The translations under genes and the position numbers were made by a program. Of a DNA stretch of 51,546 nt, positions 4,196 to 29,028 are shown piece by piece (within the stretch, counting starts at the first letter, position 1; every line of letters begins with the position of its first letter). The notes beneath the pieces are model-generated. The model was given only the letters and a program-made list of their open reading frames with translations, did no database searches and was not told the origin of the DNA. The stretch is taken from the NCBI GenBank assembly GCA_903861145.1, contig CAIOTH010000112.1:1-51546 (forward strand). Direction: 5' to 3'. The stretch is from an uncultured Bacteroidota bacterium (GTDB taxonomy: Bacteria > Bacteroidota > Bacteroidia > Chitinophagales > LD1).

Positions 4196-5017
4196 ATGCC
4201 CTTCACTACAAAAACAATAACATCCGAAGCTGAATCTCCCTTGGCTTACTTTGAGAAATGCTGGAATAGTAGGTCCTTACTGGTTTTAATGGTAATGCGT
4301 GAGTTAAACATAAAATATGCTGGTTCTCAGGTAGGTAAATGGTGGCTATTGATTTATCCGCTGGTCACCTTATTTATTTACAAGCTAATATCGCAGTATG
4401 TTTTTAAAGTGCAATCCGAAGGGGTCCCCTATGTTTTGTTCGCTCTAAGCGGTATTATTCCCTGGATGTTTTTTTCTTCCGTAGTAGCCAACTCTGCCAG
4501 TGTATTCCCGGCCAATCGCGACCTCGTAAAAAAATCATACTTCCCCCGCGCCCTTCTTTTAATTGTTAAGGTGGTTGTTGGCGTTCTCGAAATGGGAATA
4601 ACCCTCCTAATCTATTTTTTATTGATGCTCATATTTCAGTTTCAACCCACCACCAAACTACTGCTTTTGCCGCTGGCCATTGCCTGCAATGCAATTGTGG
4701 CTTTTTCTTTTTCATTATGGATAACCGTTCTTTCAATGCGGTTTAGAGATATTTTTCAGGCCGTACCCCTGCTGGTAAATCTTATGCTTTGGTTAACCCC
4801 CGTATTTTACCCGGTAGCAATGATTCCCAAAAAATTTCTTCCTCTCGCATATTTTAATCCAATGACATTTGTTGTCGATGCTTATCGTTTTGTATTAATC
4901 GGGGCAACATTCCAACCTTTTAATTGGGTTATCTCACTCATCGTTTCAATACTTATGTTCATTACAGGAGTATTGGTTTTTATTAAGCGCGAGGACCGGT
5001 TGGTCGAAAATTTATAA
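4196..5017 (+). CDS. ABC-2 type polysaccharide exporter permease (Wzm-like)
   Basis: The 273-residue protein has about six membrane segments. The N-terminal region SRSLLVLMVMRELNIKYAGS is followed by GKWWLLIYPLV, the layout of Wzm/TagG/KpsM-type ABC-2 permeases. Other matches are the loop VFPANRDLVKKSYFPR and the segment WLTPVFYPVAMIP, both characteristic of the family. It pairs with the ATPase starting 14 bases downstream to form an inner-membrane exporter of glycans or glycolipids. No Wzx, Wzy or O-antigen polymerase lies nearby, so the cargo may be a product of the accessory cluster downstream rather than classical O-antigen. Confidence 0.88.
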   Translation: MPFTTKTITSEAESPLAYFEKCWNSRSLLVLMVMRELNIKYAGSQVGKWWLLIYPLVTLFIYKLISQYVFKVQSEGVPYVLFALSGIIPWMFFSSVVANSASVFPANRDLVKKSYFPRALLLIVKVVVGVLEMGITLLIYFLLMLIFQFQPTTKLLLLPLAIACNAIVAFSFSLWITVLSMRFRDIFQAVPLLVNLMLWLTPVFYPVAMIPKKFLPLAYFNPMTFVVDAYRFVLIGATFQPFNWVISLIVSILMFITGVLVFIKREDRLVENL

Positions 5018-5031
5018 AGCTGGCAACGCTC

Positions 5032-6222
5032 ATGGACGTAATTCAGGTTTCCGATATATCAAAAAGCTTTTCGCCTCCGGGAGAGCAACATCCTTTTTGG
5101 GCCTTAAATAACATTTCCTTTAGCTTAAAGCAGGGCGATTTGTTGGCCATAATCGGTAAAAATGGAAGCGGCAAATCAACCTTACTCAAAATATTATCCG
5201 AAATATATAAGCCAACATCGGGTAAGGCACTTATTAAAGGTAGAGTTGCTTCTGTCCTCGATTTTGGTACAGGTTTTCATCCCGATTTAACCGGGCGCGA
5301 AAATATTTTCTTTTATGGGGCTTTAACCGGTTTCAAACACAGCGAGCTGGTTTCAAAATTTGATGAAATCCTGGATTTTAGCGGGCTAGCTGCATTTATA
5401 GATACACCGTTAAGAAATTATTCAAACGGTATGTTTGTTCGGCTTGCTGTTTCAGTCATCTTATCGCTACGCTACGATGTACTAATTTTAGATGAAGTGA
5501 TTGGCGCTGGCGATTCTGAATTCAGGTTAAAAATGTCCGAGCGATTAAAGAGTTTTAGCGAAAATGGCACCACCATATTAATAGCCAGCCATAATATGAA
5601 CGAGTTATTTAATTGTAATGCGGTTTTGTGGCTCGAAGCTGGAAGAATGAAAAGGTTTGGGTACGATAAAAATACTTTGGTTGAATATATGGAAGAAACC
5701 ATCGGGGCATATAGGCAAAACCTGGCGGCAAAAGAAAGTGGTAATCAGGTAAGCATTGCTAAAATGGGTATAACCTACGGTGGGTTTAAATTGAACGAAT
5801 TATGGCTCAGCGATAAAGGCCAAAATCCTAAATCAATGTTTGCCTACGATGAAGATATTTTTTTGCAGGTGAAAGCAACTACACTTCAACCGGGGGCATC
5901 ATTCCCTTTCCAGTTTGGGGTTTTTGATTCTATGTCAAATTTATTGTTTGGCACATCTTACCAGCTTTTTAACCCTGATTTTAAGACAAAGCAGGTTGGC
6001 GATGAAATCTCGTTTACAGCCCTTTTTCCTAAATCGCTTTTCAACTTAGGGTCCTATTTTATTAATTTGTATGGATTGCATGATGATGGCAGATTTAAAG
6101 ATCTGGGCAAAAATGTGGCCGCCTTTACAATTATTGCAGCCGAAAAGACCGCCTTTGCACCAAGGGGCAGTTTTATGCCCGGCGTTATTCGCCCCTTTAT
6201 TAATTGGCAAATAACACAATAG
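5032..6222 (+). CDS. ABC exporter ATPase with C-terminal Wzt-like domain
   Basis: The nucleotide-binding domain fills about residues 1-235. It has Walker A GKNGSGKST (42-50), the Wzt/TagH-type signature YSNGM near 130, Walker B ending in D154-E155, and the switch His187 in ASHN. Residues from about 240 to 396 form an extra beta-rich domain with the pattern of Wzt C-terminal carbohydrate-binding domains, e.g. EDIFLQVKA and FGVFD. In characterised O-antigen exporters that domain recognises a terminal modification on the finished glycan. Its presence suggests that cargo is checked for a chemical cap before export. Transcription is likely shared with the permease gene upstream. The three halogenase-like genes follow on the same strand after 128 bases. 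Confidence 0.9.
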   Translation: MDVIQVSDISKSFSPPGEQHPFWALNNISFSLKQGDLLAIIGKNGSGKSTLLKILSEIYKPTSGKALIKGRVASVLDFGTGFHPDLTGRENIFFYGALTGFKHSELVSKFDEILDFSGLAAFIDTPLRNYSNGMFVRLAVSVILSLRYDVLILDEVIGAGDSEFRLKMSERLKSFSENGTTILIASHNMNELFNCNAVLWLEAGRMKRFGYDKNTLVEYMEETIGAYRQNLAAKESGNQVSIAKMGITYGGFKLNELWLSDKGQNPKSMFAYDEDIFLQVKATTLQPGASFPFQFGVFDSMSNLLFGTSYQLFNPDFKTKQVGDEISFTALFPKSLFNLGSYFINLYGLHDDGRFKDLGKNVAAFTIIAAEKTAFAPRGSFMPGVIRPFINWQITQ

Positions 6223-6350: not shown

Positions 6351-7184
6351 ATGAACCATTTAGTAGTTAAAAGGCCCGATTTTGGGTTTGCAAAAGACTC
6401 TTTAAACGCGCTCCGAAATACAGAATTGAAATATCTTATAATCGAGAACTTCTTTAACGAAGATGAGATTAAGTCTATTATTCACGATTTAAGGGCTTTG
6501 CCGAAAGATCTTTATTCCGAAACCAAGCCGGGATTTACGGTTTTCCCCCGTCATGCATTTAATATATCCAACCGCGATGAAGACATGCATGTTTATTTTT
6601 CTGTTTCAAACAAGGCAATTGATGATCTTAAGAATAATGTGCAGGTTGATGTGGTGCAGCGGTTTGATGACGTATTTAAAGAAGTGAACAATTCCAACCC
6701 GGTTGAAATTCTGGATGGCCCTGGCGATGGAATTAAATTTATTCCTGTAAACTTTCGGTTAATGACATCCGAAGTTGGTGCCAAGGCAACGTCAGGCATT
6801 CATAACGGCTCTCATGTTACTGCCCGGTGCGTTAATAGTACCTATAAACACCTTAACGGGCTTATTGATTTTGACAATCAGCTAAGTTTTTTCTGCTTGC
6901 TTCAAAACTGTAATGAAGGTGGCGACCTTACAATATATGACTACAAAGTGGATGACTACCCCAGCCTTTCCGATGGCCGGTACCTTACCAAACCCGGTAG
7001 CAATGTAGATTTACAGACCACAAAAAACAAATGCACAGTACATATGGAGCCCGGTGATTTAATAATATTTCCAGGTGGCCAGTTATGGCATAGGGTTGAA
7101 GTGGTGAAAAAAGGTGAACGCATTTCGCTTGGTGGTTTTGTTGCGGCAAGGTATAGCGATAATAGCTGGCACTATTGGAACTAA
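6351..7184 (+). CDS. WelO5-like 2OG-Fe(II) halogenase-type protein, copy 1
   Basis: The 277-residue protein has the double-stranded beta-helix pattern of non-haem iron 2-oxoglutarate enzymes. The position that usually reads HxD reads H151-N-G153. The distal ligand is H247 in GGQLWHRV and the 2OG-binding Arg is probably R257 in GERISLGGF. Spacing, ending and surrounding blocks (PVEI..GP, DQLSFF, EGGDLTIY, PGDLIIF, HYW) follow the fatty-acid-size indole-alkaloid halogenase WelO5 as I recall it. In WelO5 a Gly replaces the metal-binding Asp, leaving a site for chloride. Chlorination of a C-H bond is therefore the leading hypothesis. Substrate is unknown, and azidation, hydroxylation or an inactive role cannot be excluded. 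First of three tandem paralogues. Confidence 0.72.
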   Translation: MNHLVVKRPDFGFAKDSLNALRNTELKYLIIENFFNEDEIKSIIHDLRALPKDLYSETKPGFTVFPRHAFNISNRDEDMHVYFSVSNKAIDDLKNNVQVDVVQRFDDVFKEVNNSNPVEILDGPGDGIKFIPVNFRLMTSEVGAKATSGIHNGSHVTARCVNSTYKHLNGLIDFDNQLSFFCLLQNCNEGGDLTIYDYKVDDYPSLSDGRYLTKPGSNVDLQTTKNKCTVHMEPGDLIIFPGGQLWHRVEVVKKGERISLGGFVAARYSDNSWHYWN

Positions 7185-7256
7185 ATAGCTGCAACAACTA
7201 ATCAATTGATTTTATAATAAGCCGGAAGGCTCGATGGATAAATTCACTTTCATACA

Positions 7257-8090
7257 ATGAATCACTTAGTTATTAAAAGGCCGGATTTCGGATTTGCCAA
7301 AGACTGCTTAAATGCGCTAAAAAAAACTGAGTTAAAGTATTTGTTGGTACAGGATTTTTTTACCGGCGATGAACTTAAAACTATTATTAGAGATCTAAGA
7401 GCGCTACCAAACCGGCTTTATACAAAAGCTACACCCGGTTATACGGTTTTCCCAAGGCCTGCTTTCAACATGGTAAATCCGGCAGAGGATGTGGAGGTCT
7501 ATTTTACCGAGGCCAAAGAGGCCTTTATTAACCTCAAAAAATATATCGGTATTGATGTTGTGGCCCGCTTTAATGATGTGTTTAAACAGCTTAATAGCGC
7601 AAAGCCGGTTCAGGTATTACCTGGGCCCACTGATGGCTCAACGTTTATGCCAATAAACTTCCGGATTATGACTCCTGAGATAGGTACTAAGGCAACCTCG
7701 CACATTCATAATGGCTCAAATATAACCGCACGTTGTGTAAACGGAACATATAAGCACCTTGCTGATGTTGTTGATTTTGAAAATCAACTCAGCTTTTTCT
7801 GTTTACTCCAAAATTGTGCTGTTGGCGGAGATTTAACCATATATGATTTTAAACGGGAAGATTACCCCGCGTTGGTTGATGGCAGATATCTTATTAATGG
7901 AGATATTAAAATTGACCTGGAAACAACAAAAGAGAAATGCACAGTTCATATGGAACCCGGCGATTTAATAGTATTTCCGGGTGGCCAGCTATGGCACCGT
8001 GTTGAAGTTGTAAAAAAAGCCGAGCGCATATCGTTAGGTGGTTTTGCTGCCTCATCCTTTGCTGGTAGTAATTGGTACTATTGGATATAA
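7257..8090 (+). CDS. WelO5-like 2OG-Fe(II) halogenase-type protein, copy 2
   Basis: The 277-residue paralogue aligns end to end with copy 1; 37 of the first 50 residues are identical. The iron-site residues are again H151-N-G153, H247 and R257, so the missing carboxylate is conserved and not a single-copy mutation. Differences concentrate in residues 75-125 (e.g. NPAEDVEVYFTEAKEAF), in the 200-225 loop, and at the C-terminus where FAASSFAGSNW replaces FVAARYSDNSW. In WelO5-type enzymes the lid and substrate pocket lie in comparable regions, so distinct substrates or positions are plausible. It starts 72 bases after copy 1 and belongs to the same array. Confidence 0.72.
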   Translation: MNHLVIKRPDFGFAKDCLNALKKTELKYLLVQDFFTGDELKTIIRDLRALPNRLYTKATPGYTVFPRPAFNMVNPAEDVEVYFTEAKEAFINLKKYIGIDVVARFNDVFKQLNSAKPVQVLPGPTDGSTFMPINFRIMTPEIGTKATSHIHNGSNITARCVNGTYKHLADVVDFENQLSFFCLLQNCAVGGDLTIYDFKREDYPALVDGRYLINGDIKIDLETTKEKCTVHMEPGDLIVFPGGQLWHRVEVVKKAERISLGGFAASSFAGSNWYYWI

Positions 8091-8125
8091 AACATGATTT
8101 TTAAGCGATAAATCCGTTCCATCTT

Positions 8126-8965
8126 ATGAACCATTTAGTAGTTAAAAGGCCCGATTTCAAATCTGCTCACGATAGCTTAAATGCACTTACAAGTTTAGAT
8201 GTTAAGTATCTTTTAATTAAAAACTTCTTTGACGATGATGAGGTTAAATCAATTGTCAAGGATCTGAAAGCCTTACCACCCGAGCTTTGTACTGTCATTA
8301 AAACCGGATTCACTGTTTTCCCCCGTCAGGCATTCAACATTGCCGATCCGGGCGAGAAGTTAGATGTATACTTCTCGGCCACCGCCGAAGCCACTAATGA
8401 TTTGAAAGCCCACTTTGGTGTTGATGTGGTGCAACGGTTTGACGAGGTTTTTAAGGAAATAAACAACGGCAATACCGTACAGGTGCTTAACGGGCCTGGC
8501 AACGGCACTAAATTTACACCGGTAAACTACCGCTTGGTTACGCCGGAAGGAGGAGGATTGAAGGGACCCTCCATTATTCACAACGGGTCAAATATTACAG
8601 CGCGATGTGCAAATAGCACTTATAAGCACCTCACCGGATTAATCGATTTCGATAACCAGTTAAGTTTTTTTACCCTTCTTCAAAACGCTCAGGAGGGAGG
8701 CGACCTTACAATCTTTGATTTTAAACGCGATGATTACCCGTCTATTGAACAAAACCGGTACATTATAGGCCGAAACGGCACAAAAGTGGATCTTGAAGCA
8801 ACCAGCGAAAAATGTACGATACATATGGATCCCGGCGATTTAATGGTTTTTTCAGGCGGACAACTTTGGCATAAGGTAGAAATAGTTCAGAAGGGTGAGC
8901 GTATAACATTAGGTGGTTTCACCGCAATCAGGTACAGCGATAAAACGTGGCATTATTGGATTTAG
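8126..8965 (+). CDS. WelO5-like 2OG-Fe(II) halogenase-type protein, copy 3
   Basis: This 279-residue paralogue carries two extra residues. The triad region reads I-H152-N-G154-S, with H249 in GGQLWHKV and R259 in GERITLGGF. A one-residue insertion and a Gly-rich change precede the first ligand (EGGGLKGPSI instead of EVGAKATSGI), next to the active site. Its first 32 bases are identical to those of copy 1 although the genes diverge elsewhere. It starts 35 bases after copy 2. Its stop overlaps by four bases the stop of the convergent radical SAM gene. As with the other copies, halogenase activity is inferred from the H-x-G signature. Confidence 0.72.
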   Translation: MNHLVVKRPDFKSAHDSLNALTSLDVKYLLIKNFFDDDEVKSIVKDLKALPPELCTVIKTGFTVFPRQAFNIADPGEKLDVYFSATAEATNDLKAHFGVDVVQRFDEVFKEINNGNTVQVLNGPGNGTKFTPVNYRLVTPEGGGLKGPSIIHNGSNITARCANSTYKHLTGLIDFDNQLSFFTLLQNAQEGGDLTIFDFKRDDYPSIEQNRYIIGRNGTKVDLEATSEKCTIHMDPGDLMVFSGGQLWHKVEIVQKGERITLGGFTAIRYSDKTWHYWI

Positions 8966-10365
8966 GTGCGGGCCGGCAACTGTGGTCCATTCGCAAATTT
9001 AATTTTAGGTATTACCCTGTCAATCGGTGCATGTAGCAAATCACCTGCTATAAACTCCACTGGTATAAACATCATTTCGGTTAACGATTTTCTTACAACA
9101 GTTTCGTCAATTTCAGCAAGTATTTTACTCAGCCGGTTGTAAACCTCTTCTTTCTTTTCGGCCATCGCTCCTTCCGATAAAACATTGTAATTGTACAGTC
9201 GCTGAATAAATTTTTCTTTCAACGCGTCCAGGCTTTCTGCACCCAATTCCGATTTGGAGGTTTCATATTTATCTGCGCCTTCCGCCCATTTTTTAACCTT
9301 ACCGCTAAGCGATTTAAACTTATTGATGTTCAATTGGGCAACATCTGTTTTAGCCCTGGCAAACGAAGCCATGTCGTACGCCGCGCCAACAATCTCCAGG
9401 TTATTTCTGCCCCAATTCCATAACGAAGTATGAAAAGGATAATGTACGTAATGGAACACCAACGGAATATTTCTTGTGTTGCAAAAGTTTACAAAATCGG
9501 GCATCTCGTGCCAGTTTTGGCGCATCACACAAACGTTTAAACTAATGTGCCTTTTCATTTTAGCCGAAAGCTCATAAATAGTATTAAATCCATTCATTAC
9601 CCTTTCCAGGTTGCCGTTCTTTCTTACAACCGGGTAGTTCTCTTTATCTAATGAGTCAATCGAAAAGGAGATATTGAAATTACCGCTTTTAAACAAATCA
9701 ATAATACGCTGGTTAACCAACGAACCATTAGTAAGAACCGATATCCTGGCCTTGGGATTAACCTTAACCAGTTCATCCCAAATGTCATAGTGCAGGTCAA
9801 TCATAAAAGGCTCGCCGCCTACAAACCGCGCTTCATTTATATGTGGAAGAAATTCACTTAGCTGGGCTACAAATTGCTTGTCGTAAACCTGTTTAAAGGC
9901 AGGCTGCTTCTCACGGTTAACTCTTATAGACGATGAATACTCCCCGTTGCACATTATGCATTCGTAATTACAAGTATTACCTATTTCAAAATCAAGCATT
10001 AAGGGGTAATTCCCCTTGCTCTCTGCCGCCAGGTAATCATAATTTCTTAAAGCAGCACTATAGTAATTCGAATCAGCGATGTCCTTACCACATAAAGCGC
10101 ATCCTTTTGAAAAATCGTTTAACTCCAAATGGCTTCTTAATTCCTTCAGTGTATCACCAAACCATATGTCACGTATGCTTTGGTTCGAAATGTTGCCTAA
10201 AATATGTTGGCGGTTATGGCTACACGCCAAAACATTACCGGAATGCGCAAACCTTAACGACGAAAACGGGGCATGGCAAATTTTGGCCAGGGCCCGTTTT
10301 TCCCGGGTATCATTATAGTCTTCAATACTTTTTTTATTTGGCCTTAAGGCGTCAGGTGCCCGCAT
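8962..10365 (-). CDS. Radical SAM protein with N-terminal SPASM/twitch-like domain
   Basis: The 467-residue protein has the radical SAM cluster motif C132-x3-C136-x2-C139 in GNTCNYECIMCN and the GGEP motif in RFVGGEPFM. Before the core, residues 30-92 contain C30-x-P, G-x-V-x-x-C48, the IW of IRDIW, and GC89-x-x-C92. This is the cysteine layout of a SPASM/twitch domain, normally found C-terminal to the barrel. Such proteins usually modify peptides or act in unassigned pathways. No precursor peptide was identified nearby. It is the third gene of a compact minus-strand operon with the HTTM-like protein (two-base gap) and a small membrane protein. The product is unknown. Confidence 0.85.
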   Translation of the reverse strand: MRAPDALRPNKKSIEDYNDTREKRALAKICHAPFSSLRFAHSGNVLACSHNRQHILGNISNQSIRDIWFGDTLKELRSHLELNDFSKGCALCGKDIADSNYYSAALRNYDYLAAESKGNYPLMLDFEIGNTCNYECIMCNGEYSSSIRVNREKQPAFKQVYDKQFVAQLSEFLPHINEARFVGGEPFMIDLHYDIWDELVKVNPKARISVLTNGSLVNQRIIDLFKSGNFNISFSIDSLDKENYPVVRKNGNLERVMNGFNTIYELSAKMKRHISLNVCVMRQNWHEMPDFVNFCNTRNIPLVFHYVHYPFHTSLWNWGRNNLEIVGAAYDMASFARAKTDVAQLNINKFKSLSGKVKKWAEGADKYETSKSELGAESLDALKEKFIQRLYNYNVLSEGAMAEKKEEVYNRLSKILAEIDETVVRKSLTEMMFIPVEFIAGDLLHAPIDRVIPKIKFANGPQLPART

Positions 10366-13481: not shown

Positions 13482-14276
13482 TCACCTGCCGGTCAAAAGT
13501 TCAAACTTCTTTTCTATTCCCTTAATTTGGGGGTGATAGCTGTCAAAAAAATGAGCATGGTCTTTAGTCCAATCAGTCGTATTGGGCCCTTTATTTTCAT
13601 GCGTCCTTTTAGCATCTATTAAACTAGTGTCAACTTCCAAAAATGCAGCCAGGTTTAAAACATTTGAAGATATCTCGTTGGTCCGTAGCAACAAAACATC
13701 CTTGTCAGCAATAAAATCAAGTATTTTATTGTTTTGGTTAATCCAATAGTTAATTAGCTTGGGAATAAACAGATTGGCTTTCTCTATCACCCTTTCAATG
13801 TTGCCGAACTCCGGCTTTAAAATTGTCTTTTCAAAAAGTAAATCAACATACATTTCGTGCCATATTTCGCTTGGCAAAACAGCTAACTGGTATGCTGTAA
13901 AATTTACAAAAGAATTAATCCACGATTTGCAGTCACGAAAGCTATATATGTATTTTACATTTTGCTCGGTATTTGATAACGATGGAATAAAATAATGATT
14001 GAACGTAGATATATCAGGCTTAAACTCGTTGGCGTGGTTGCGTGAATTTATAAAATCATGCCAGGCCTCATCTGGTAAATTCTCCTTGGTTCGCATCCAA
14101 ATAGTATTCATGGCCTCAGCAAACATAAACTCGTGATTTGGGCCAAAATTGTATAACATGGCATATATGCTCGACGAGCCTGTTTTGGGCAGGCCTATGT
14201 AATAAACTTTGTGGTTTAAAGTTTTGAATGACTCAACCGAAGCCCCGCTATTCTTAAATAATCTATGAATACTCAT
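13482..14276 (-). CDS. PAPS-dependent sulfotransferase family protein
   Basis: The 264-residue protein has the 5'-phosphosulfate-binding loop GLPKTGSSS at 28-36 with Lys31. A second block KYIYSFRDCKSW fits the 3'-phosphate-binding strand and helix (R-x-x-x-S form). The C-terminal DWTKDH and surrounding region fit the sulfotransferase fold. Family members transfer sulfate from PAPS to hydroxyl or amino groups of lipids, sugars or small molecules. It is the last gene of the minus-strand operon 20399-13482, 30 bases after the GNAT-like gene. In context it would add a late sulfate decoration. The acceptor is unknown. Confidence 0.8.
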   Translation of the reverse strand: MSIHRLFKNSGASVESFKTLNHKVYYIGLPKTGSSSIYAMLYNFGPNHEFMFAEAMNTIWMRTKENLPDEAWHDFINSRNHANEFKPDISTFNHYFIPSLSNTEQNVKYIYSFRDCKSWINSFVNFTAYQLAVLPSEIWHEMYVDLLFEKTILKPEFGNIERVIEKANLFIPKLINYWINQNNKILDFIADKDVLLLRTNEISSNVLNLAAFLEVDTSLIDAKRTHENKGPNTTDWTKDHAHFFDSYHPQIKGIEKKFELLTGR

Positions 14277-14306: not shown

Positions 14307-14972
14307 TCAATTCTCTATTTCAACTTTTACTTTACTCCTTATATCACTGGGCAAGTGATTTGCCAGCGATAAAAATAAATTACGGCATAATTCATTATCA
14401 ACCAATTTATCCATCACAATCGTTATATCAAACCTGTAATCGTATAGTGTACCAAGGGCTTTTCTTATTTTATTAGTCGATTGCTCATACGGCTGGCTCT
14501 CTGTCTCTGTCAAGGTAATCTCATTTTTATCTTTGTTAATCTCTTTATCGGCCCCAAACCATTCGTAATTAGTAAGCGCCCTATTGTTGGTAGCCAAAAC
14601 ATTGCCATAAAATTTTTTAATGCCAAACAGAAACCGGCAAATATCCATAAAGCTTATCATAAACAGTGCCGCCATCGAAGAGTCAAATAAATCTTCCGTT
14701 GCAATAAAAGTGCCCGGCTCTGCCAAACTAACTTCGTAATCAATATGGCGCAACAGGCAGTAGCCTATTACACCGTTATTTTTTTTGGCAATAAAATAGT
14801 GGTTGTTGATTGTATCTTCTTTTTTAAACCAGGCAATTTGCTGCTCTTCCGAAACCTCACCTTTGTTAACCAGGTAGTTTTGTATTACCGGTGTGTTGCG
14901 CAATAAGCGAAGCTCTTCCAGGTTTTTCCAATTTACCTTTTCAAACTCAAAATGGTTGGTTTTTATTATCAC
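14307..14972 (-). CDS. GNAT-family N-acyltransferase
   Basis: The 221-residue protein shows the GNAT order: an N-terminal substrate strand (RLLRNTPVIQNYL), a central beta4 region (HYFIAKKNNGVIGYCLLRHID), an acidic strand and the C-terminal N-x-x-A segment (ATNNRALTNYEWFG) typical of RimJ-like enzymes. A tail of about 60 residues beyond the core is unusual. It starts with GTG overlapping the TGA of the carrier protein gene by three bases, so the two are translationally coupled. Acyl transfer from the carrier protein or CoA to an amine is the likely role. The substrate is not evident. Confidence 0.72.
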   Translation of the reverse strand: MIIKTNHFEFEKVNWKNLEELRLLRNTPVIQNYLVNKGEVSEEQQIAWFKKEDTINNHYFIAKKNNGVIGYCLLRHIDYEVSLAEPGTFIATEDLFDSSMAALFMISFMDICRFLFGIKKFYGNVLATNNRALTNYEWFGADKEINKDKNEITLTETESQPYEQSTNKIRKALGTLYDYRFDITIVMDKLVDNELCRNLFLSLANHLPSDIRSKVKVEIEN

Positions 14973-15199
14973 CGCTTGCTTAATGAACTAATAAGAGAAT
15001 ACAAATCAGCAACAGTTTTGCACGATTTAATTTGCTGATCCGAAAGTTTAACGGCGAAAGTTTCTTGCACCTTGGCACGTACAATAACAATGTTTAGCGA
15101 ACTCCATCCCAGCAATTCTAACAAGTCAGAATCTGCCACAATGAGTCCAACCTTAATTTCAGCAAATTCTTCGCGCAAAGCGTTTATTAGTTTGTCCAT
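14969..15199 (-). CDS. Acyl carrier protein-like protein
   Basis: I start this gene at the ATG at 15197-15199, four bases after the TAG of the ligase gene. That gives a 76-residue protein of normal carrier length. A longer frame from 15247 would overlap the ligase by 44 bases. The phosphopantetheine site reads LLGWSSLNIV: the attachment Ser is present, but the usual Asp just before it (DSL) is Ser. Helices 1 and 2 and the C-terminal KTVADLYSLI fit the carrier fold. Placed between an acyl-adenylating ligase and a GNAT enzyme, it probably receives the activated acyl chain. Whether the altered motif is still pantetheinylated cannot be seen. Confidence 0.75.
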   Translation of the reverse strand: MDKLINALREEFAEIKVGLIVADSDLLELLGWSSLNIVIVRAKVQETFAVKLSDQQIKSCKTVADLYSLISSLSKR

Positions 15200-15203
15200 A
15201 ACA

Positions 15204-16952
15204 CTATGCGTAAATTTCAACCAGGGCGTTTTTGAACTTGTGTTCAATTTCGTGTCTCTTTAATTTCATGCTTGGCGTAAGTTCACCGTTTTCAATAGTA
15301 AAGCTCTCGCTCAATAATTTAAACCCGCGAATCTGCTCCGATTCGCTATAATCAATATTATACTCGTCAATAATTTTTTGTATTTCGCTCAACACCCGTT
15401 CATCATTTATTATTTGGTTTGATGTCAATGTACCCGAAGCATCATTGAGGATGAACTTTTTGATATTGATAAAGTTAGGCACTATCAATACCGAAATAAA
15501 TTTTTCATTCGCCCCCGCTACAATGCATTGCTGAATGTATAACGAACTATTTAGCCTTTTCTCTATAACCTCGGGTGCTACATATTTACCCGCTGTTGTT
15601 TTGAAAATATCCTTTAGCCTGCCTATTATTTTCAGGTATTTGCTGTCAACAAGTAAACCTTTATCCCCGGTTTTGAAAAACCCCTCGTCATCAAAACAGC
15701 TATTACTATACTCTGGCATTTTATAGTAACCCGAAAACATGTATGGGCTACGGCACAACACCTCACCGCTATCTTCTATTTTTATTTCTACATCCCTAAA
15801 CAAAGGTCCAACGGTGTTAAACTTAATACCTCTTTTATCGCAGTTCACCGAAATTACGTGGCACTCTGTCATGCCAAATCCCTCATACACGGGTATACCT
15901 GCCATCCAAAAAAACTTCATTATTTCGGGTGGTATGGCAGCTCCTCCGGCCATAATAAATCGCACCTGTCCGCCCATAATACCTCGTATTCTTTCGTACA
16001 CTATTTTGTCAAAAAGCTTTCGCAATAACCGGGCGCTTACTGATAATTTTGCCTGCGGTTCGTACCGTGCGGTAAAATCTATAGCAGCTTTAAAAATGGC
16101 TCTCGAAATCCCCTTTAACTCACCGGTCTTCTCAATTGTACCGGTGCGCACTTTTTCAAGTAACATAGGCGAGCCCAAAAAAATGGTAGGCTTAATTTCC
16201 TGCATATTTTGAATAATGCTTAGCATGCTCTCCGCGTAATAAGTGCATATGCCATTTAACTGGTAAAAGTAGTTAAGCGATCTTTCCGAGCTTACGCTTA
16301 ACGGCGCGTAACTAATAGCCCGGTCGGTATAATTAATGTCATAAATATCTTTAAGTGCATTTACCGTTTTCACTATGGCACTATGCGAAACCATGGCCCC
16401 CTTGCTCTTACCCGTGGTACCCGATGTTAAATAAATCGAACAAATATCACCGGGCTTAACGGCGCCTTTATACCAGGCTAGCATTTTGGAGTCTTCCCTG
16501 GTACTGGTAAACTCCATCAAGTCATATATTGATTTTGAATAACCGCAATTTTCAAAACTGTAGATGCCTTTAATTTTTGGGTTGTGCTGTTGTATCTTTT
16601 TTACCTGGTCATAAAGTAATTTACCGCTTACAAAAACAAATTCCGCATCGGTATACTCTAAAGAATAGCTCAAATCTTCAAAGTTAAAATTGGGATATAA
16701 CGCTACATGTATTGCCCCGGTTTGTAGAATGGCCATATCCAGTATGTTCCACTCAGGCTTATTAAAGGTTACTGAGGCCACCTTGGTTTCTTTTACTACG
16801 CCGGCGTGAATAAGCGCTATGCTTAACCGGTTGGCCATTTGGCCGTATTCGGTAAACGAAATCGTTTCCCACCGGTTATCTTTTTTGAAACCGAAGGCGG
16901 CCTTGTTGGGATTTATTTGTGCCTGTTGCTCAAGTATGTCAAAAACTCTCAT
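15204..16952 (-). CDS. Long-chain fatty acyl-CoA/acyl-AMP ligase
   Basis: The 582-residue adenylate-forming enzyme has the AMP-binding P-loop YLTSGTTGKSKGAMVSH (174-190). It also has GFGMTECHVISVN, the C-terminal hinge DGFFKTGDKG-like block (DEGFFKTGDKGLL) and a GRLKDIFKTTAGKYVAPE segment typical of long-chain acyl-CoA synthetases. It activates a carboxylic acid with ATP. The carrier protein gene follows after four bases, so loading of an acyl chain onto that carrier is the simplest model, with CoA as the alternative acceptor. It sits 38 bases after the diiron-enzyme gene in the same operon. Confidence 0.9.
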   Translation of the reverse strand: MRVFDILEQQAQINPNKAAFGFKKDNRWETISFTEYGQMANRLSIALIHAGVVKETKVASVTFNKPEWNILDMAILQTGAIHVALYPNFNFEDLSYSLEYTDAEFVFVSGKLLYDQVKKIQQHNPKIKGIYSFENCGYSKSIYDLMEFTSTREDSKMLAWYKGAVKPGDICSIYLTSGTTGKSKGAMVSHSAIVKTVNALKDIYDINYTDRAISYAPLSVSSERSLNYFYQLNGICTYYAESMLSIIQNMQEIKPTIFLGSPMLLEKVRTGTIEKTGELKGISRAIFKAAIDFTARYEPQAKLSVSARLLRKLFDKIVYERIRGIMGGQVRFIMAGGAAIPPEIMKFFWMAGIPVYEGFGMTECHVISVNCDKRGIKFNTVGPLFRDVEIKIEDSGEVLCRSPYMFSGYYKMPEYSNSCFDDEGFFKTGDKGLLVDSKYLKIIGRLKDIFKTTAGKYVAPEVIEKRLNSSLYIQQCIVAGANEKFISVLIVPNFINIKKFILNDASGTLTSNQIINDERVLSEIQKIIDEYNIDYSESEQIRGFKLLSESFTIENGELTPSMKLKRHEIEHKFKNALVEIYA

Positions 16953-16990: not shown

Positions 16991-17704
16991 CTATTGTAAC
17001 TTTATATTGTTCACGGTGTCAAAAAACGCCCATATGCCTGCAAATAATTCATATGCCGCATGCATGGCCGCATCTAAATTCTCTCTCTCATTGGGAATTA
17101 ATTCGGCAAGTTCAAACGAATCCTGAACGTGTCCTTCTTCTAATTCATTATGCGATGTAATCCAAATTAAATCCTGTGCATTGAATTTAATCTCGCTGTT
17201 GAGGGTAATGTCTTTTATGTAATCGAAAATGGGTTGTACTACTAATTCGTTAGCCACTGCAACGCCAAGGGCTTTATAAGGGTGGTTGGTTTTAAAAAGA
17301 CGATCATATATCTTACCCAAATCATCATAAGCCGCCTCCAAAGCAGGCAAATCTTCAGCGTTTATTTTGCAGTATGGATTCACTGCATTCAAATATCTGC
17401 CTATTAATTTTACATGTATGTTTTCCGATTTTCCGCCACCCAATTCATCATATAACTGCGGCACAAGTTTGCAACGAACCTCCAGGTTATCCGAAATGGA
17501 GATAAGATGAGCCAAAAAAGCCGTTATATCTAATCCACGCCCGTTTTCCATAATAACACTTACGTAGCCAATGTTTTTATTGTCGGTTCTTTGAAAGAAG
17601 GGATGGGCAGAAATTTGATGGTCAATAAAAAACTGGGCAAGTGCTTTGCCGTTACTTACAACCGGTAGTTTGGGCATGCTGTTCATAGGTTCCGCTATTG
17701 TCAT
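16991..17704 (-). CDS. Haem-oxygenase-like diiron oxidase/oxygenase (HDO)
   Basis: The 237-residue all-helical protein carries a full set of candidate diiron ligands in the HDO order: E87 and H97 (DELGGGKSENIH), E153 (VANELV), and H185-x3-E189-x2-H192 (SHNELEEGH). The H-x3-D/E-x2-H spacing, and the 32 residues between E153 and H185, agree with what I recall of CADD-type members. UndA, BesC and SznF belong to this superfamily and perform oxidative C-C cleavage, desaturation or N-oxygenation. Here the enzyme lies between a UbiA-type gene and an acyl ligase, so a lipid or amino-lipid substrate is plausible. Three bases separate it from the upstream gene. Confidence 0.75.
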   Translation of the reverse strand: MTIAEPMNSMPKLPVVSNGKALAQFFIDHQISAHPFFQRTDNKNIGYVSVIMENGRGLDITAFLAHLISISDNLEVRCKLVPQLYDELGGGKSENIHVKLIGRYLNAVNPYCKINAEDLPALEAAYDDLGKIYDRLFKTNHPYKALGVAVANELVVQPIFDYIKDITLNSEIKFNAQDLIWITSHNELEEGHVQDSFELAELIPNERENLDAAMHAAYELFAGIWAFFDTVNNIKLQ

Positions 17705-17707
17705 ACA

Positions 17708-18631
17708 TCAAAGGTTTTTAAGCATAAATAAAGTGATAAGCGTATAAAGCCTGGTGCCATTAAAAACTACATCCGGCACCTTAAGCCTCCAAAGATAATT
17801 CAATTTGGCCGAACGTATTAGCACAATTGTAATCTCAACCAACAGTCGGATTATTATACCCGGGGCGAACGCAAATCCTATCCATAAGCGTAATGTTTCA
17901 TCCGCCATACTTCGCACATAAAACAAGCCAATCAGCGAAAGTACACAAAGGAAGATTGCAAGTAATGAGGCCCTCGTATTCCCTAAAATAGCTACCATTG
18001 TTTTAAGCTGCAGTTTCTTTTCTTCCACCGAATCAGCTGAACTTTCTACTAAAAAAAGCGAATATTCCGAAAGCGAAACCAGAAAGAAAACGATAAACAA
18101 CAATTTGTGGTTATAAGCTGAAGTTGCCGGTTCCCCACAATAATACCCAGCGAGCCACAATGAAAAGTAGCCAATCATCAAAACTCCAAAATGGCCCCAC
18201 CAAAATATTTTTAACCTGTTTTCAGCCTCCTTACCGGGTATAAAAAAATTGTACGAGTACAATATGGCAACCGCCGTAAATATGAAAATGAAAAGGGCTG
18301 GCAAATAAGCGCCGGTAAGTAGTAATAGCAGTAACCCCAGTGCAACCACTAACAACTCTACAATAAGAACTGTTTTAGTAATTTTTTTATCCTGGCTCAG
18401 TAATTTATATAAGTCAGGCTTTTTCGCGGCATCCAGCTCCTTATCGGTTATGATGTTTAAGTGTGTCATAAAGGCCGATGAAAAGCTAACGGTAAATAAG
18501 GCTATTAATATAGTTAGGTAGTCGCCCTTATGATATGTAATGGCGTAGCCACTAATTAGCAAAAAAAGCAAGGGAAGATTCTTCCAAATGCGGGCAGCCA
18601 GTATTACGGAAAACAGAGCAGACCAATTCAT
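17708..18631 (-). CDS. UbiA-family prenyltransferase-like membrane protein
   Basis: The 307-residue protein has about eight or nine membrane helices. Motif 1 reads N59-IIT-D63-KEL-D67-AAKKP, the first aspartate-rich region of UbiA enzymes. The second conserved region appears as YSYNFFIPGKEAENRLK, matching the YS...K form, although the second DxxxD is weak. Members attach prenyl groups to aromatic acceptors, or cyclise them. It follows the toroid protein gene by one base and precedes the HDO gene by three. This suggests one pathway in which a prenyl or isoprenoid unit is handled. The weak second motif leaves activity uncertain. Confidence 0.75.
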   Translation of the reverse strand: MNWSALFSVILAARIWKNLPLLFLLISGYAITYHKGDYLTILIALFTVSFSSAFMTHLNIITDKELDAAKKPDLYKLLSQDKKITKTVLIVELLVVALGLLLLLLTGAYLPALFIFIFTAVAILYSYNFFIPGKEAENRLKIFWWGHFGVLMIGYFSLWLAGYYCGEPATSAYNHKLLFIVFFLVSLSEYSLFLVESSADSVEEKKLQLKTMVAILGNTRASLLAIFLCVLSLIGLFYVRSMADETLRLWIGFAFAPGIIIRLLVEITIVLIRSAKLNYLWRLKVPDVVFNGTRLYTLITLFMLKNL

Positions 18632-18632
18632 A

Positions 18633-20399
18633 TTATTGCAATGGGATATTGGCGTTCATGTATGGGATAAGGGCAGCCATTTCTATATATTCTAAATGGG
18701 TTTTGCAGGTGTATCTCAAGGGTGTTGGTATGTGCTCAACAAAATCATTTTCATTTTGTCCGCTTGGTTTGTCCAAATTTAATGCCATTACAACGGCTGC
18801 CAGGTAAACCATATTATATGAATCTTCGTGAAACGACAATGCCAGGTCGTAGCCATTTACCGATACCTTTCTCCCTTTAAAGCTTTTATCCCCGGTAATT
18901 AGCGATGAATAAAACGGAATGCTACTTCCGTTAAGGTGGCGTTCGTAATTTAAAGCTATAAATGTTTGAATTGACTCAATCGCTTTGCCCCGGTAACCGG
19001 CCTCGTTCAAAGCCAGGCACGCAAAAGCTGAAGACAATACATGGTCGAATTTGCCGGCGCTTCCATCACTGTTAAGAGCAGCTAATATTTCTTTACATAA
19101 TAGCTCTTTATAGTTGTTTGCTTTGTTTATATATGAAAGGCCTTGCGCAAATGTCCAATCAACTAAAAACGGATTTGCAAAATAAAGGCCACTACGGATA
19201 TTGAAATTATCGAGTAGATATTGCTCTGTTTTAACTTCAGGTTCAAAACCGGCTTTTCTCCTCAGTGCATAAATCAGGGCCGTAGGCGCAAGGTCAGTCT
19301 GGCACCAATGCCTTTTCTCGGGTACAAATTGCATTTCGCCCGCTACAGGATTCATAGACCATAATTGCGGATAATACCCACCCGTACCATCGCTGAATTT
19401 TTCAATCAGGCTGGCAGCCTTTGCGTCGTTCAATCCTTGCATTACAAGTGCCGAATCAATCGAGGTTTCAAGATCATCCATCTCGAACGACCACAAACCA
19501 CGCAGTTTTTTTTCCAGTAATCTTTTTTCCACTCGTTCCTGAAGTTCAGTTAGCCCCGTTTTCTTTAAAGCTCTGCTTACAAACCCAAGCGGCACCAAAT
19601 CTCCAAACGGAAATTTTTCGTTGCCTTCAGGGGGCAGCCAACTCATCGCAAGCTTTTCAATAAGCGCCCTTTCCGCAACTTCGGCCAGCAAAAGCTCGGC
19701 TTTCGCGCGCTGTCTTTTAGCCCTTCCTTGTACCGCCATCGATAACCCCTTAAATAAGTTGGCATCTATATTACCATGCTTGAAGAAAAAATAATTACAA
19801 CTATCTGTGCGCGTAAAGTCTGCAAAAATAGCTGACTCAATATGAACCGGTAACAGATTTTCATATTCGGCAACAAAAACATCGCCCTTAAATTTGCCGC
19901 CTTTGTAATTTACACCAATCGCCGGCAATAGTTCATAATGTTGCTGCGATGGCTCGTTGGTAAATAAGCTTGTTGCATGTGCAGTGCTACCATCAATCTT
20001 AACAAATAAAAAAACATCTCCGTATTCATCATCTTGCCCATAAGCCAGGGTGTCTACACTATCTATGGCAAACTTATCCTGCACCCTTGCAAATCTGGTT
20101 TTTAGCGTATCCGGTCCTGTGTAGGCATAATCCACAAGATTTTCTCCATGAAACAAATCAGCGGTTTCCTTTTTTGGAGCAAGGTACCTGCCCTGGCTGG
20201 TCAGTACTACATAACTGTGCGATGAAATATCAATTGCCTCGTTCAGAAAGTACATTTTTTTTATCGTTTCCTCTGTCGCAATTTCCTTTATAGCATCAAG
20301 ATTAAACAACACCATCCATTGCAACTCACCCGGTAATTTATCAAGAATATTTTCTATTTTCACGATGACGAAATTATGCCAATTTTGCTTAACCTCCAA
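18633..20399 (-). CDS. Alpha/alpha-toroid (prenyltransferase/terpenoid-cyclase-repeat-like) protein
   Basis: The 588-residue protein has an N-terminal region of about 290 residues without recognised motifs. A helical part follows with toroid-type repeats: RGLWSFEMDDLETSIDSALV near 300, HWCQTDLAPTALIYAL near 365, and FDHVLSSAFACLALNEAG near 480. This fold includes terpenoid cyclases and protein prenyltransferase beta subunits. The class II cyclase motif DxDD is not present at the expected place; only the last Asp (SIDSA) remains. Enzyme activity is therefore uncertain. The longest frame starts with TTG; a GTG at 20361-20363 is a good alternative. It is the first gene of the minus-strand operon and divergent from the TauD-like gene. 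Confidence 0.6.
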   Translation of the reverse strand: MEVKQNWHNFVIVKIENILDKLPGELQWMVLFNLDAIKEIATEETIKKMYFLNEAIDISSHSYVVLTSQGRYLAPKKETADLFHGENLVDYAYTGPDTLKTRFARVQDKFAIDSVDTLAYGQDDEYGDVFLFVKIDGSTAHATSLFTNEPSQQHYELLPAIGVNYKGGKFKGDVFVAEYENLLPVHIESAIFADFTRTDSCNYFFFKHGNIDANLFKGLSMAVQGRAKRQRAKAELLLAEVAERALIEKLAMSWLPPEGNEKFPFGDLVPLGFVSRALKKTGLTELQERVEKRLLEKKLRGLWSFEMDDLETSIDSALVMQGLNDAKAASLIEKFSDGTGGYYPQLWSMNPVAGEMQFVPEKRHWCQTDLAPTALIYALRRKAGFEPEVKTEQYLLDNFNIRSGLYFANPFLVDWTFAQGLSYINKANNYKELLCKEILAALNSDGSAGKFDHVLSSAFACLALNEAGYRGKAIESIQTFIALNYERHLNGSSIPFYSSLITGDKSFKGRKVSVNGYDLALSFHEDSYNMVYLAAVVMALNLDKPSGQNENDFVEHIPTPLRYTCKTHLEYIEMAALIPYMNANIPLQ

Positions 20400-20452: not shown

Positions 20453-21244
20453 ATGAATTTTATTAAACGCGTCAGGTATTACGATGGCTTGCTTGCTGAT
20501 ATCAAAAACCTCGTTTCTACCAATAAGGTGGTTCACATAAGTGATGTCCCTTCCTCAGTTGATATAGATAAATTTTATATTGAGATGGGAGACCAGCTGG
20601 GTATGCTGTTCAGAAAAGACGTTGATCCGGCAACCCGTCAATTAGTTCACGATTCATGGACAATTGTAAAATATGATGTAAGGTACCTGCACGATACATA
20701 TAAACACAGTAATAAAGCGCAACCATTGCATACTGATTACTGCAATGCAAGCATAGCGTTAGATGTGGTAGAGTTAATATGCGTTGAGGCGGCCCCGTTC
20801 GGTGGGGCAACTATCTTTATGGATTCAATTCTTTTGCTTGAATTATTGAAGAAATTCAAACCCGGATTGATGAAACAACTACAGGATAAGGAGGTGATTT
20901 TTGGAAAAGCTCCCCATCCCCTGTTTCGTAATACGGCTAGGGTGATTAGCTATGATGACGATGGCCCATTGCTTTATTGGAACTACGCTGTAGTGGCTCC
21001 CGATAACACCCCCGATGTATTGCAGATGTGCGAAGAGTTCCACGATTTTTTAGAGTCGTATGTTGTGCGTGGGGGCTTATGTACTCCAATTAATTTAGCC
21101 CCCCGCGAAGGTGTGTTTATGCAGGATAAAAGAATTTTACATGGGCGGAATTCATTTTTGGGCGATAGGCACCTTTTAAAAGGTGGCATAGCAACTAAAG
21201 ATTTGGAAATGGTTCAGGAAAAAGTACACAAAATTTTTGGTTAA
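20453..21244 (+). CDS. TauD/CAS-like 2OG-Fe(II) dioxygenase
   Basis: The 263-residue protein has a standard iron triad: H93-T-D95 (PLHTDYCN) and the distal H230 (RILHGRNSF), with R239 a candidate 2OG ligand. Between them EAAPFGGATIFMDS is the typical strand-turn of the TauD/clavaminate synthase superfamily. Family members hydroxylate, desaturate or cyclise amino acids, sulfonates and natural-product intermediates. It is divergent from the lipid operon, with only 53 bases between starts, so regulation may be shared. Its TAA overlaps the ATG of the GT2 gene by one base. The intact HxD here contrasts with the HxG of the three WelO5-like proteins. Confidence 0.85.
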   Translation: MNFIKRVRYYDGLLADIKNLVSTNKVVHISDVPSSVDIDKFYIEMGDQLGMLFRKDVDPATRQLVHDSWTIVKYDVRYLHDTYKHSNKAQPLHTDYCNASIALDVVELICVEAAPFGGATIFMDSILLLELLKKFKPGLMKQLQDKEVIFGKAPHPLFRNTARVISYDDDGPLLYWNYAVVAPDNTPDVLQMCEEFHDFLESYVVRGGLCTPINLAPREGVFMQDKRILHGRNSFLGDRHLLKGGIATKDLEMVQEKVHKIFG

Positions 21245-22457: not shown

Positions 22458-25400
22458 TTATTCGGACTTAACAAAGCGCTTGCTTACCGTAGTTCCATTT
22501 ACATTGAATTTTATCCAATACATGCCCGCTGATAGGTTGCCCGTGTTGAAGGTAATTTTATCGGCCTGTAGGTTAAAGCTAATCTCCGCTACTTTTCCGG
22601 TTATATCATACACTACCGGCAAAGTATTGCTATTGGCAAATATTCCGCTTTGTGCAATAACCATGTTATTGGCTGGGTTAGGATAAATTGATATACCTTC
22701 TTCAAGGGCCATGTCATCAATACCTAAGCACGATTCAACAACAAGGTTTTTCGTTACTGCATTGCTGCAACCCTCACTATCAATATAAGTATATGTAACC
22801 GGGTAAGTTCCCGAACCACTAACTGTAAGCACCAAACCATTCAACCCGGTGCCGGTTAAAATACCCCCACTCGGACTTGGACCTGCAATAGTAATTTGCG
22901 TAGCACTGTTATTATCGCAAACAGTATCGCTCTGTGGCCATGTTATAGCTGGTGGTGCTTGTACCGATAAATTGAGTGTTATTACACTATCACATCCCGA
23001 TTGGGTAGATAACGTATCAAGATAAGTACCGCTAATGGCAATAAAATGACCGTTAAAATTATAACTGCTACCTGTACAAATCGAATCGCTAACTGTAACA
23101 CTAACACCCTGGCTCAGGCTCAGATTCAGGGTAACAACGCTATCACAACCGCCTTGTGCAGTTAATGTATCAGTATAGGTACCTGCTGTAGTTAAGTTTT
23201 GACCATTGAAAGGGAAAGAGCTGCCACTGCATATAGTTGCATCAACGGTAATCGGAATTATGGCGTTTATAGCCAGGTGTAAAACCGATATGCTATCGCA
23301 ACCGCTTTGTGTGGTAAGGGTATCATAGTAGGTTCCGCTTACGGTTAGCTGTTGGCCGTTAAAATCATAGCTGGTTCCTGCGCAAATAAATGCCTGGGTG
23401 GTGTGGGTAATAATCGGGTTTTCAATCAAGCTCAAAATAACAATACTATCACAGCCCCCTTGCGCGGTTAAAGTATCAGTATAAGTACCTGTGGTAGTTA
23501 ATGTCGTTCCATTAAAACTATAACTGCCACCATGGCAAATATTTGCTGCGGTGTTGGTGGTTATAAACGAGTTTACCTGCAAGTTCAGTGTTGCAATGCT
23601 ATCACACCCATTGCTACCTATCAAATCAGCGAAATACGTACCGGTTTGGCTTAAATGCTGCCCATTAAATAAGTAAGTGCTTCCAACACATATCGCGGCA
23701 TTTATTGTACTGCCGGTAGGCTGGCTAACCGTCAGGGTTAAGGTTACAATACTGTCACAACCGCCAAGCGCTGTCAAGGTATCTTTATAAACACCACTAA
23801 TGGTCAAAAACTGTCCATTAAAATCATATGAGGAATTCTGGCAAATGGCCGCGCTTATTGCAGAAGTAACGTATGGATTAATTTGAAGTGATAGGTTAAC
23901 AACACTATCGCATCCATTACTGCCGGTTAAGGTTTCCGAATAATTGCCCGCTGCGGTTAAATTTTGGCCATTAAAGAAATAGCTTCCACCGGCACATATG
24001 CCCGCATGAATAGTACTTGACGTGCTCTGGTTAACGGCCAGCGCTAATATTACAATACTGTCGCAACCTCCTTGCGAAGTTATGGTGTCACGATAAGTTC
24101 CCGCAGTCCCTAATTGCTGTCCGTTAAAATTATATGGATGTCCCTGGCAAATTGTAGCACTAATATTGTTGGTAACAAACGATGTTATCTGTAAAACCAG
24201 TGTTACCATACTATCACATCCGGCTTCAGAGGTATAATGCGCATAATAGGTACCTGCAGTATTTAACTGCTGCCCGTTAAACAGGTAAGTGGTGCCTACA
24301 CAAATACTGGCATGAATGCCGGTACGGATAGGCGAATCTACAGTTAGGTTAACTACCACAATACTATCGCAGCCAAATCGGTTGCTTAGCGTATCATAAT
24401 AAAGGCCTGATGCACTTAATTGCTGGCCGCCAAAAGAATAAGTCGTACCAAAACAAATGGACGGGCTGGAGTAAGATCCTGTAATCGGATGAACGGTTAA
24501 GTTGACAGTAACGATGCTGTCACAACCACCGGTTGTTTGCAACGTGTCGTTAAAGCTTCCGGCTGTAGTTAAATTCCGGCCATTAAAATTGAAAGTATCG
24601 CCCGAACAAATTGCCGCGCCATAGCTGTGTGTTACTGTTGTTATTATGGTCAGGCGAAGTGTAATAATACTATCGCAACCTAAAGCGTTCTGTAGCGTGT
24701 CATAATAGGTGCCGGCTGTATTAAGCGTTTGCCCGTTAAAACTGTAACCCTGGTTAGGGCAAATAGTAGCACTAACCGAACTGGACGATGGCTGATTAAC
24801 CGTGATATGGATATTGGCAACGCTATCGCATCCGTTGGCTCCGGTAAGGGTAGCACTGTAATTGCCGCCGGTGGTTAATGATAATCCGTTAAAATGATAG
24901 GTCTCTCCCTGGCAAATACTTGCCGAAGAGTTACTTGAAGTAGGTTGCTTAACAGATAAAGTAAGTGTAACAATACTATCACACCCGCCTTGTGTTGACA
25001 GGGTATCTTTATAAGTGCCCGCACTGCTTAATAAAGTTCCATTAAAGTTGTATGACGTCGACGCGCAAAACGCATCGCTATATGCGAATGTTATTGGAGC
25101 ATTAACCGATAAGGTTAGGGTTATAATGCTGTCACAGTTGTTTGCATTGGTCAAAGTATCTTTATAAACGCCTGCAGCGCTGATCAGCCGGCCATTAAAG
25201 TTATAATGTCCTCCTTCGCAAATGCTTCTGCTCAGACTAGAGCTGGTCGGTAGGTGAACAGTTAACCTGGCGCCGTTAGATGAAGCATTTCCACAATTGC
25301 TGTTTGCATTGCAACTGTACGTACCGGTGTCCGTAGTAGCCACGGCGTTTATTGTATATGTTGACGAAGTGGCGTTTGCAATGTTCTGTCCGTTTTTCTG

Positions 25401-28475: not shown

Positions 28476-29028
28476 AATCTGATAATTTAGGACAGTGAAT
28501 ATATGAAAGTATGCCTCCACCGCTAAATTTTCATCAAATTAAGGCGACTAAAAGGTACGCTGATTAACCATTCTTAATAAGATGGCGACATGGGCATTTT
28601 ACTATTGAAAGAAGGTTCAAATTCGTTTTAATAATCAGGATATTAAAACTACAGTAATCTGGCCTCAAACATGAAGGCTAAAGAAGCAGCAAAGGAAAAG
28701 GCCGAAGAAAAAGGGCTAACAGGGAACTTCCCCTTCATCCCCTGTTAGTGGGGATGAGAGGGGTCGCCCTTCCGTTTTGCTGACAGGTGCAATTTAGTCA
28801 ATTATACCAATACATGGTTGTTCTGAAAGATAAATGATAATATAAATTTGAAGCTTCATTGCGGAGATTTGAAAAGGGAAGAATATATTCAAAAAAATCC
28901 TGAGTGTTTCACCTTTTTAGTCAATCACTTAAATCAAGTTGGCTCCTCTTGTGTTAACATGCCCATAGATGTTGAAAATATTTTCGGCTGAAACTGGAGT
29001 TTAGTAATTAGCCCGTTATTTTTGAGCT
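28476..29028. other. Gene-free stretch
   Basis: About 550 bases between the divergent giant T9SS gene and the LD-carboxypeptidase gene. It contains an inverted repeat with 9-base arms at 28716-28724 and 28740-28748 but no following T-run. A 25-codon open frame at 28672 looks incidental. A TAnnTTTG word at 29017-29024 is only five bases before the carboxypeptidase ATG, too close for a normal leader. No RNA gene was recognised. Confidence 0.5.

Follow-up and report, generated by a model that had tools for sequence, protein, structure and literature searches.

Three tandem genes of an uncultured Bacteroidota bacterium encode proteins that carry H-N-G where Fe(II)/2OG oxygenases carry HxD at the iron site, which raises the question whether these proteins are C-H halogenases. 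The window, meaning here the whole analysed stretch of 51,546 nucleotides, is contig C112 of a genome of 4.70 Mb in 174 contigs (98.65% complete, 1.83% contamination). On its forward strand copy 1 (6351..7184, 277 aa), copy 2 (7257..8090, 277 aa) and copy 3 (8126..8965, 279 aa) are separated by gaps of 72 and 35 bases, respectively, and 128 bases lie between the end of the preceding ATPase gene and copy 1; coordinates, lengths and motifs of the three ORFs are all as an earlier note on this DNA gave them. Relative to copy 1, copies 2 and 3 show 65% identity each, and the three copy pairs exhibit pN/pS values of 0.25, 0.26 and 0.32 at saturated synonymous differences (pS 0.79–0.82). The low pN/pS together with this saturation indicates that the duplications are old and that the proteins were kept under purifying selection. 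Furthermore, the x+2 glycine was retained although copies 2 and 3 each differ from copy 1 at about one third of the positions, and along with the purifying values in all pairs this sustains the view that the common motif is selected and not a lesion. Decayed or frameshifted genes are ruled out by the three open frames and the purifying selection. When the motif columns were left out of the tree calculation, the copies grouped as a single clade (100/100), which was found in no other genome among those searched.

All three copies match the Pfam profile PF22814 ('carrier-protein-independent halogenase WelO5', curated cut-off 27 bits) with 136.6, 145.5 and 144.7 bits for copies 1, 2 and 3, respectively, and with E-values of 1.6e-39 to 3.1e-42, far beyond chance. 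The matches extend from profile positions 10–13 through 276 of 277. In an NCBIfam search with the three copies all matches were far under the cut-offs, and matches to PhyH (E 0.012 for copy 1 and 0.041 for copy 3) were below the cut-off as well. Searching the PDB with a profile of the three copies placed the six WelO5-type sequences at the top (1.4e-15 to 1e-14), followed by the next family only at 0.0029. The AlphaFold2 model of copy 2, derived from a 17-row alignment (pLDDT 84.6, pTM 0.87), was compared with known structures: rows 1–17 of the Foldseek result are all WelO5-type chains, and VIA-align superimposed ten WelO5-type entries with Z 27.4–29.0 over 244–259 residues (rmsd 2.2–2.9), the next family appearing at Z 16.3. 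The identity between the model and the WelO5 structures is only 21–22%.

The site residues are H151-N-G153, S179, H247 and R257 in copies 1 and 2 and H152-N-G154, S180, H249 and R259 in copy 3. Alignment with WelO5* matches H164, G166, Q187, S189 and H259 in all three copies, which contradicts the alternative that a different H-x-D forms the metal site. Profile, copy 2 model and alignment thus back the assignment to the WelO5 family and the HxG iron site, as proposed in the earlier note, and the intact distal His and Arg and the residue numbers proved correct in all three copies; as a minor correction, the block quoted there as DQLSFF reads NQLSFF in the window. The residue after the glycine is Ser in the window copies (HNGS) and Asn in WelO5* (HVGN), and 3 to 4 extra residues directly before the motif are absent from the other 34 aligned rows, WelO5* included. 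Close to these residues the model of copy 2 is less certain (block means 63 and 73). Among the copies the position of WelO5* 162 varies (G, H, I), and the strongest divergence is found in residues 201–220, which face WelO5* position 221 (14 of 20 variable). At the level of sequence this divergence at both places fits different substrate pockets, and a division of labour among the three copies, with different substrates or positions, is possible.

The glycine could in principle be compensated by a carboxylate from elsewhere in the protein. The sequence alignment contains 21 columns that are acidic in all three copies. Most strongly linked to HxG is D236 (22/22 other HxG rows, 6/11 acid rows), an equivalent of which is present in WelO5* too, followed by E250 (19/22 HxG and 3/11 acid rows), where WelO5* has Ser. 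Judged from these columns, neither D236 nor E250 appears convincing as a substitute ligand in the third facial position. The S179-equivalent Ser is present in 10 of the 11 HxD/E relatives; consequently, an S189-type Ser is no halogenase mark. Q177, found in 25/26 HxG rows versus 3/11 acid rows, was likewise dropped as such a mark, because Q also occurs in 8/8 further HxD proteins of family f3, which belongs to the same order. In two H-C-G members (L059 4448-5266 and L087 1435-2253) the S189-equivalent is V or A.

The third ligand varies within the protein family itself. The family profile matched 40 ORFs, and removal of two duplicates and two fragments of <150 aa left 36 proteins. At x+2, 25 of them carry Gly, 7 Glu and 4 Asp (HxD or HxE in 11/36), two of the seven Glu (L089, L090) having been assigned by eye with the motif shifted to H-Q-E; the distal His and Arg are kept in 36/36. 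On the tree without motif columns Gly and acid were exchanged at least five times; several branches are long, so that the deep order of the tree is unsure. Later loci contributed further proteins, namely eight HxD members from f3, in which Ala occupies the S189 position, and two with the shifted H-Q-E. Since HxD and HxE members occur within the same protein family, Gly seems to be an alternative that has been retained rather than the default. The natural H-x-E/H-x-D members in the organism's own bacterial family (L023, L024, L025, L026, L027) are ready hydroxylase-type comparisons.

Given the family score, the fold of copy 2 and the conserved H164, G166, S189 and H259, C-H halogenation is the likeliest chemistry predicted for the triplet. 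We consider it probable that the copies are WelO5-family paralogues working as two-His Fe(II)/2OG enzymes, which take up halide at the open site and halogenate C-H bonds. The iron would be held by two histidines, and chloride or bromide would take the third facial position, which the glycine would open. Reaction with 2OG and O2 would generate a ferryl intermediate that would abstract hydrogen from a carbon of the substrate, whereupon the halide, rather than hydroxyl, would be transferred to this carbon. Both halide binding and halogenation by the triplet are thus predictions. In QM/MM work cited by PMC13244439, S189 is an obstacle to hydroxyl rebound, and a passage of the same paper describes a BesD-related hydroxylase in which a single Gly exchange did not yield efficient halogenation. 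Therefore, the HxG dyad alone should not be given too much weight; a passage of PMC8406957 expresses similar caution for this enzyme class. In the triplet, the dyad is accompanied by membership in a family of which the solved representatives are WelO5-type halogenases. For WelO5 a G166D variant is deposited (PDB 5iqu, according to its PDB title).

The copies have the fold (copy 2), the H-x-G dyad, S189, the distal His as well as GGF and YW near the C-terminus in common with WelO5, WelO5* and Wi-WelO15 (PDB 5iqs, 8aut and 6gem). They differ from these by the low identity over the model (21–22%), by HNGS instead of HVGN, by the extra residues before the motif, by standing three in tandem and by their phylum: in the papers drawn on here, the WelO5-type halogenases described are cyanobacterial and valued for chlorinating unactivated carbon on free substrates. 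H-C-G proteins of uncultured Chitinophagales-related bacteria correspond to the copies in Pfam family and x+2 Gly, with HxG rows 23–29% identical to copy 1; they mostly lie beside PhyH-like genes, whereas none was found in the searched part of the window. AdeV/AdaV, BesD and SyrB2 are halogenases with Gly or Ala for the carboxylate as well, according to passages in PMC8407142, PMC11186838 and PMC13244439, but belong to families other than that of the window copies; a passage in PMC8407142 gives 15% similarity to WelO5 for AdeV and 11% identity for BesD. The triplet represents a new branch within an already known kind of enzyme, and the earlier note read its family and its iron site correctly.

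A missing carboxylate is no proof of halogenation, since human AspH, likewise with iron bound by two His, hydroxylates. The main rival reading accordingly regards the copies as AspH-like two-His hydroxylases with water at the carboxylate position. A passage in PMC13168262 describes AspH with iron on two His and water in the third site, without halogenation of its substrate; the WelO5-like relatives sit among hydroxylase-type oxygenases, the locus of one relative also encodes an AspH-family protein (PF05118), and even WelO5* with 12-epi-hapalindole C gave ~50% hydroxylated and 25% chlorinated product, as stated in a passage of PMC8766452. However, AspH, a hydroxylase with third-site water, represents another family, and none of the copies matched PF05118 at E up to 1. 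Moreover, the nearest solved relatives of the copies are WelO5-type halogenases, and the HxD and HxE siblings, which make Gly appear a kept alternative, speak against this reading, which we regard as rather unlikely. That the open site serves a different fate of the ferryl, for instance desaturation, cyclisation or the transfer of some other anion, is less probable still: HXG/A nucleotide halogenases also take Br− and N3− (PMC11186838), but nothing points specifically to such an outcome here. Non-catalytic pseudo-oxygenases, suggested by the missing carboxylate ligand, are highly improbable in view of both His and the Arg being intact in three copies and of pN/pS values of 0.25–0.32.

If the triplet consists of C-H halogenases, its neighbourhood may hint at the substrate. 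It lies directly downstream of, and on the same strand as, a Wzm/Wzt-type pair, namely an ABC-2 (Wzm-like) export permease (4196..5017, + strand; PF01061, 59.7 bits) and a Wzt-like export ATPase with the Wzt C-terminal domain (5032..6222, + strand; PF00005; PF14524, 31.7 bits vs cut-off 30.4). From this position we infer that the triplet may act on a product of the adjacent exporter. On the opposite strand a radical SAM/SPASM protein of the 'twitch' type follows as a possible partner (8962..10365; PF04055, PF13186), whose match to NF033640 (152.9 bits) is under the cut-off of 170. Further possible partners, putatively linked to the triplet, are encoded on the minus strand: a sulfotransferase-like protein (13482-14276) and a GNAT-like protein (14307-14972), both with Pfam matches below cut-off, an acyl carrier protein about 6 kb off the triplet (ACP, 14969-15247; PF00550), an AMP-dependent acyl ligase (15204-16952; PF00501), a haem-oxygenase-like iron protein (16991-17704; PF14518), a UbiA prenyltransferase (17708-18631; PF01040) and a 588-aa protein (18633-20399). 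The last remained without matches in Pfam (E up to 0.1) and in the PDB (E up to 1) and is present in 1/248 genomes of the order, that is, the organism's own. A TauD-family 2OG oxygenase (20453..21244, + strand; PF02668, 52 bits) may be linked in the same way. The genes at 13.5–20.4 kb, from the sulfotransferase-like gene through that of the 588-aa protein, may belong to the same pathway as the triplet. To read a chlorosulfolipid-like or acylated-glycan product from the genes for the ligase, the ACP and the GNAT-like and sulfotransferase-like proteins would be speculative. Farther along, at 22458-28520 (− strand), lies a gene for a 2020-aa repeat-rich protein. By analogy with other such proteins it may be secreted, with a C-terminal sorting signal.

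For comparison, another contig of this genome, C113, combines an array of PhyH genes with genes of the Wzm, Wzt, glycosyltransferase, MBOAT, sulfotransferase and radical SAM types. Its proteins are related to those of the window (permease 37%, radical SAM protein 40% and a 290-aa protein 62% identical), and because of these common proteins the window locus resembles a sister of the C113 export locus; judging by the arrangement, the HxG triplet would stand in place of the HxD hydroxylases of C113.

Similar arrangements were found around the relatives. The survey comprised 31 neighbourhoods with a WelO5-like gene, of which L059 and L086 overlap; G769 was left out (no profile match), and the window was represented by ORFs starting up to 30000. 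PhyH-like genes, between one and nine of them, occurred in 26/31; those without are C129, C73, G414, G567 and the searched part of the window. The own genome has 13 PhyH matches in 4.7 Mb, and even spacing would lead one to expect ~0.06 per 20 kb. Among 150 PhyH-like domains read, some of them counted twice owing to the overlap of L059 and L086, 140 are HxD, 5 HxN and 1 R/E, and 4 have no letters at the site; hence HxG or HxA occurs in 0/146 domains with letters there, in contrast to HxG in 25/36 WelO5-like proteins, and these domains serve as an internal control for the reading of the triplet. Relatives of the Wzt-like ATPase were present in 15/30 other neighbourhoods, relatives of the permease in 5/30 and either of them in 17/30. 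In the own bacterial family WelO5-like genes usually occur singly, as H-C-G, with PhyH oxygenases of the HxD type nearby and in many cases with export genes of the Wzm/Wzt type. Some loci of relatives also contain B12 radical SAM proteins, a multihaem cytochrome, AspH-type and cupin/JmjC proteins. In the neighbourhoods L031-L091, and also in L094 and L095 of the own genome, the PhyH-like genes stand in groups of up to nine, often with Wzm/Wzt-like genes. Some PhyH-like proteins are long (~540–650 aa), and L033:13233-14948, the example that was tested, contains two PhyH stretches. At L085 15678-19602 (G581) an H-C-G gene adjoins proteins like the GNAT-like protein (26%) and the ACP (33%) of the window.

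The own genome contains five PF22814 matches, the triplet and one H-C-G protein each on C129 and C73. The C73 gene is truncated by the contig end; its other part gave no match in four C113 stretches (80 kb of 85 kb) with an N-terminal query from a relative. The PF22814 cut-off was passed in 3/395 genomes of an even sample of the phylum, own included, in 27/396 genomes of the order and in 18/30 genomes of the own bacterial family, own included. The earlier note did not regard WelO5-type proteins as standard in the phylum; this holds for the phylum sample but not for the own bacterial family, in which WelO5-type genes are more widespread than assumed there. Sixteen of the 18 positive genomes have one match (12 H-C-G, 2 H-C-E, 2 HxD). 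For f3 the count was 15/398 genomes, nine of these 15 being weak matches (E 1e-10 or above). The named relatives comprise 14 loci, all MAGs, labelled Bacteroidetes, Bacteroidota or Chitinophagales; one is labelled Chitinophaga pinensis and one Chryseobacterium gleum. A contig scan with patterns drawn from the N-terminal half returned no relative, and the open PMC literature yielded no paper joining WelO5, halogenase and Bacteroidetes. On C103 of G581 (L108, L110) a second WelO5-like gene (HCGN) lies in two frames with stops between and is apparently decaying.

Placement of the contig in a wrong genome is unlikely, ThiC on C112 being 95%, 94% and 97% (86 residues) identical to that of three same-genus genomes; the next ThiC, at 81%, comes from another family. 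The GC content of the window is 0.41 versus 0.41–0.42 in four other stretches of the own genome. Carriage by a plasmid or virus was rejected, as neither a plasmid collection (tblastn, copy 3 as query) nor viral contigs (alignment-based scan) gave a match. The genes may be an older gain by transfer. Of the same-genus stretches around ThiC, one stops soon after ThiC and the other shows no alignment upstream.

A broader picture, which we put forward tentatively and regard as possible at best, is that uncultured Chitinophagales-related bacteria export to their surface a glycan or lipid that is densely oxidised at C-H positions, in which an exchange between HxD and HxG members of a single enzyme family would swap OH for halogen at selected positions, the triplet being a dedicated poly-halogenating version. 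The bacterial family, rich in WelO5-type genes with HxD and HxE siblings, provides a set in which to ask what besides the carboxylate decides between halogenation and hydroxylation. The reading also predicts halogenated metabolites in uncultured Bacteroidota, which are open to mass spectrometry, and a poly-halogenating locus, if true, would mean a halogenated cell-surface molecule in Bacteroidota.
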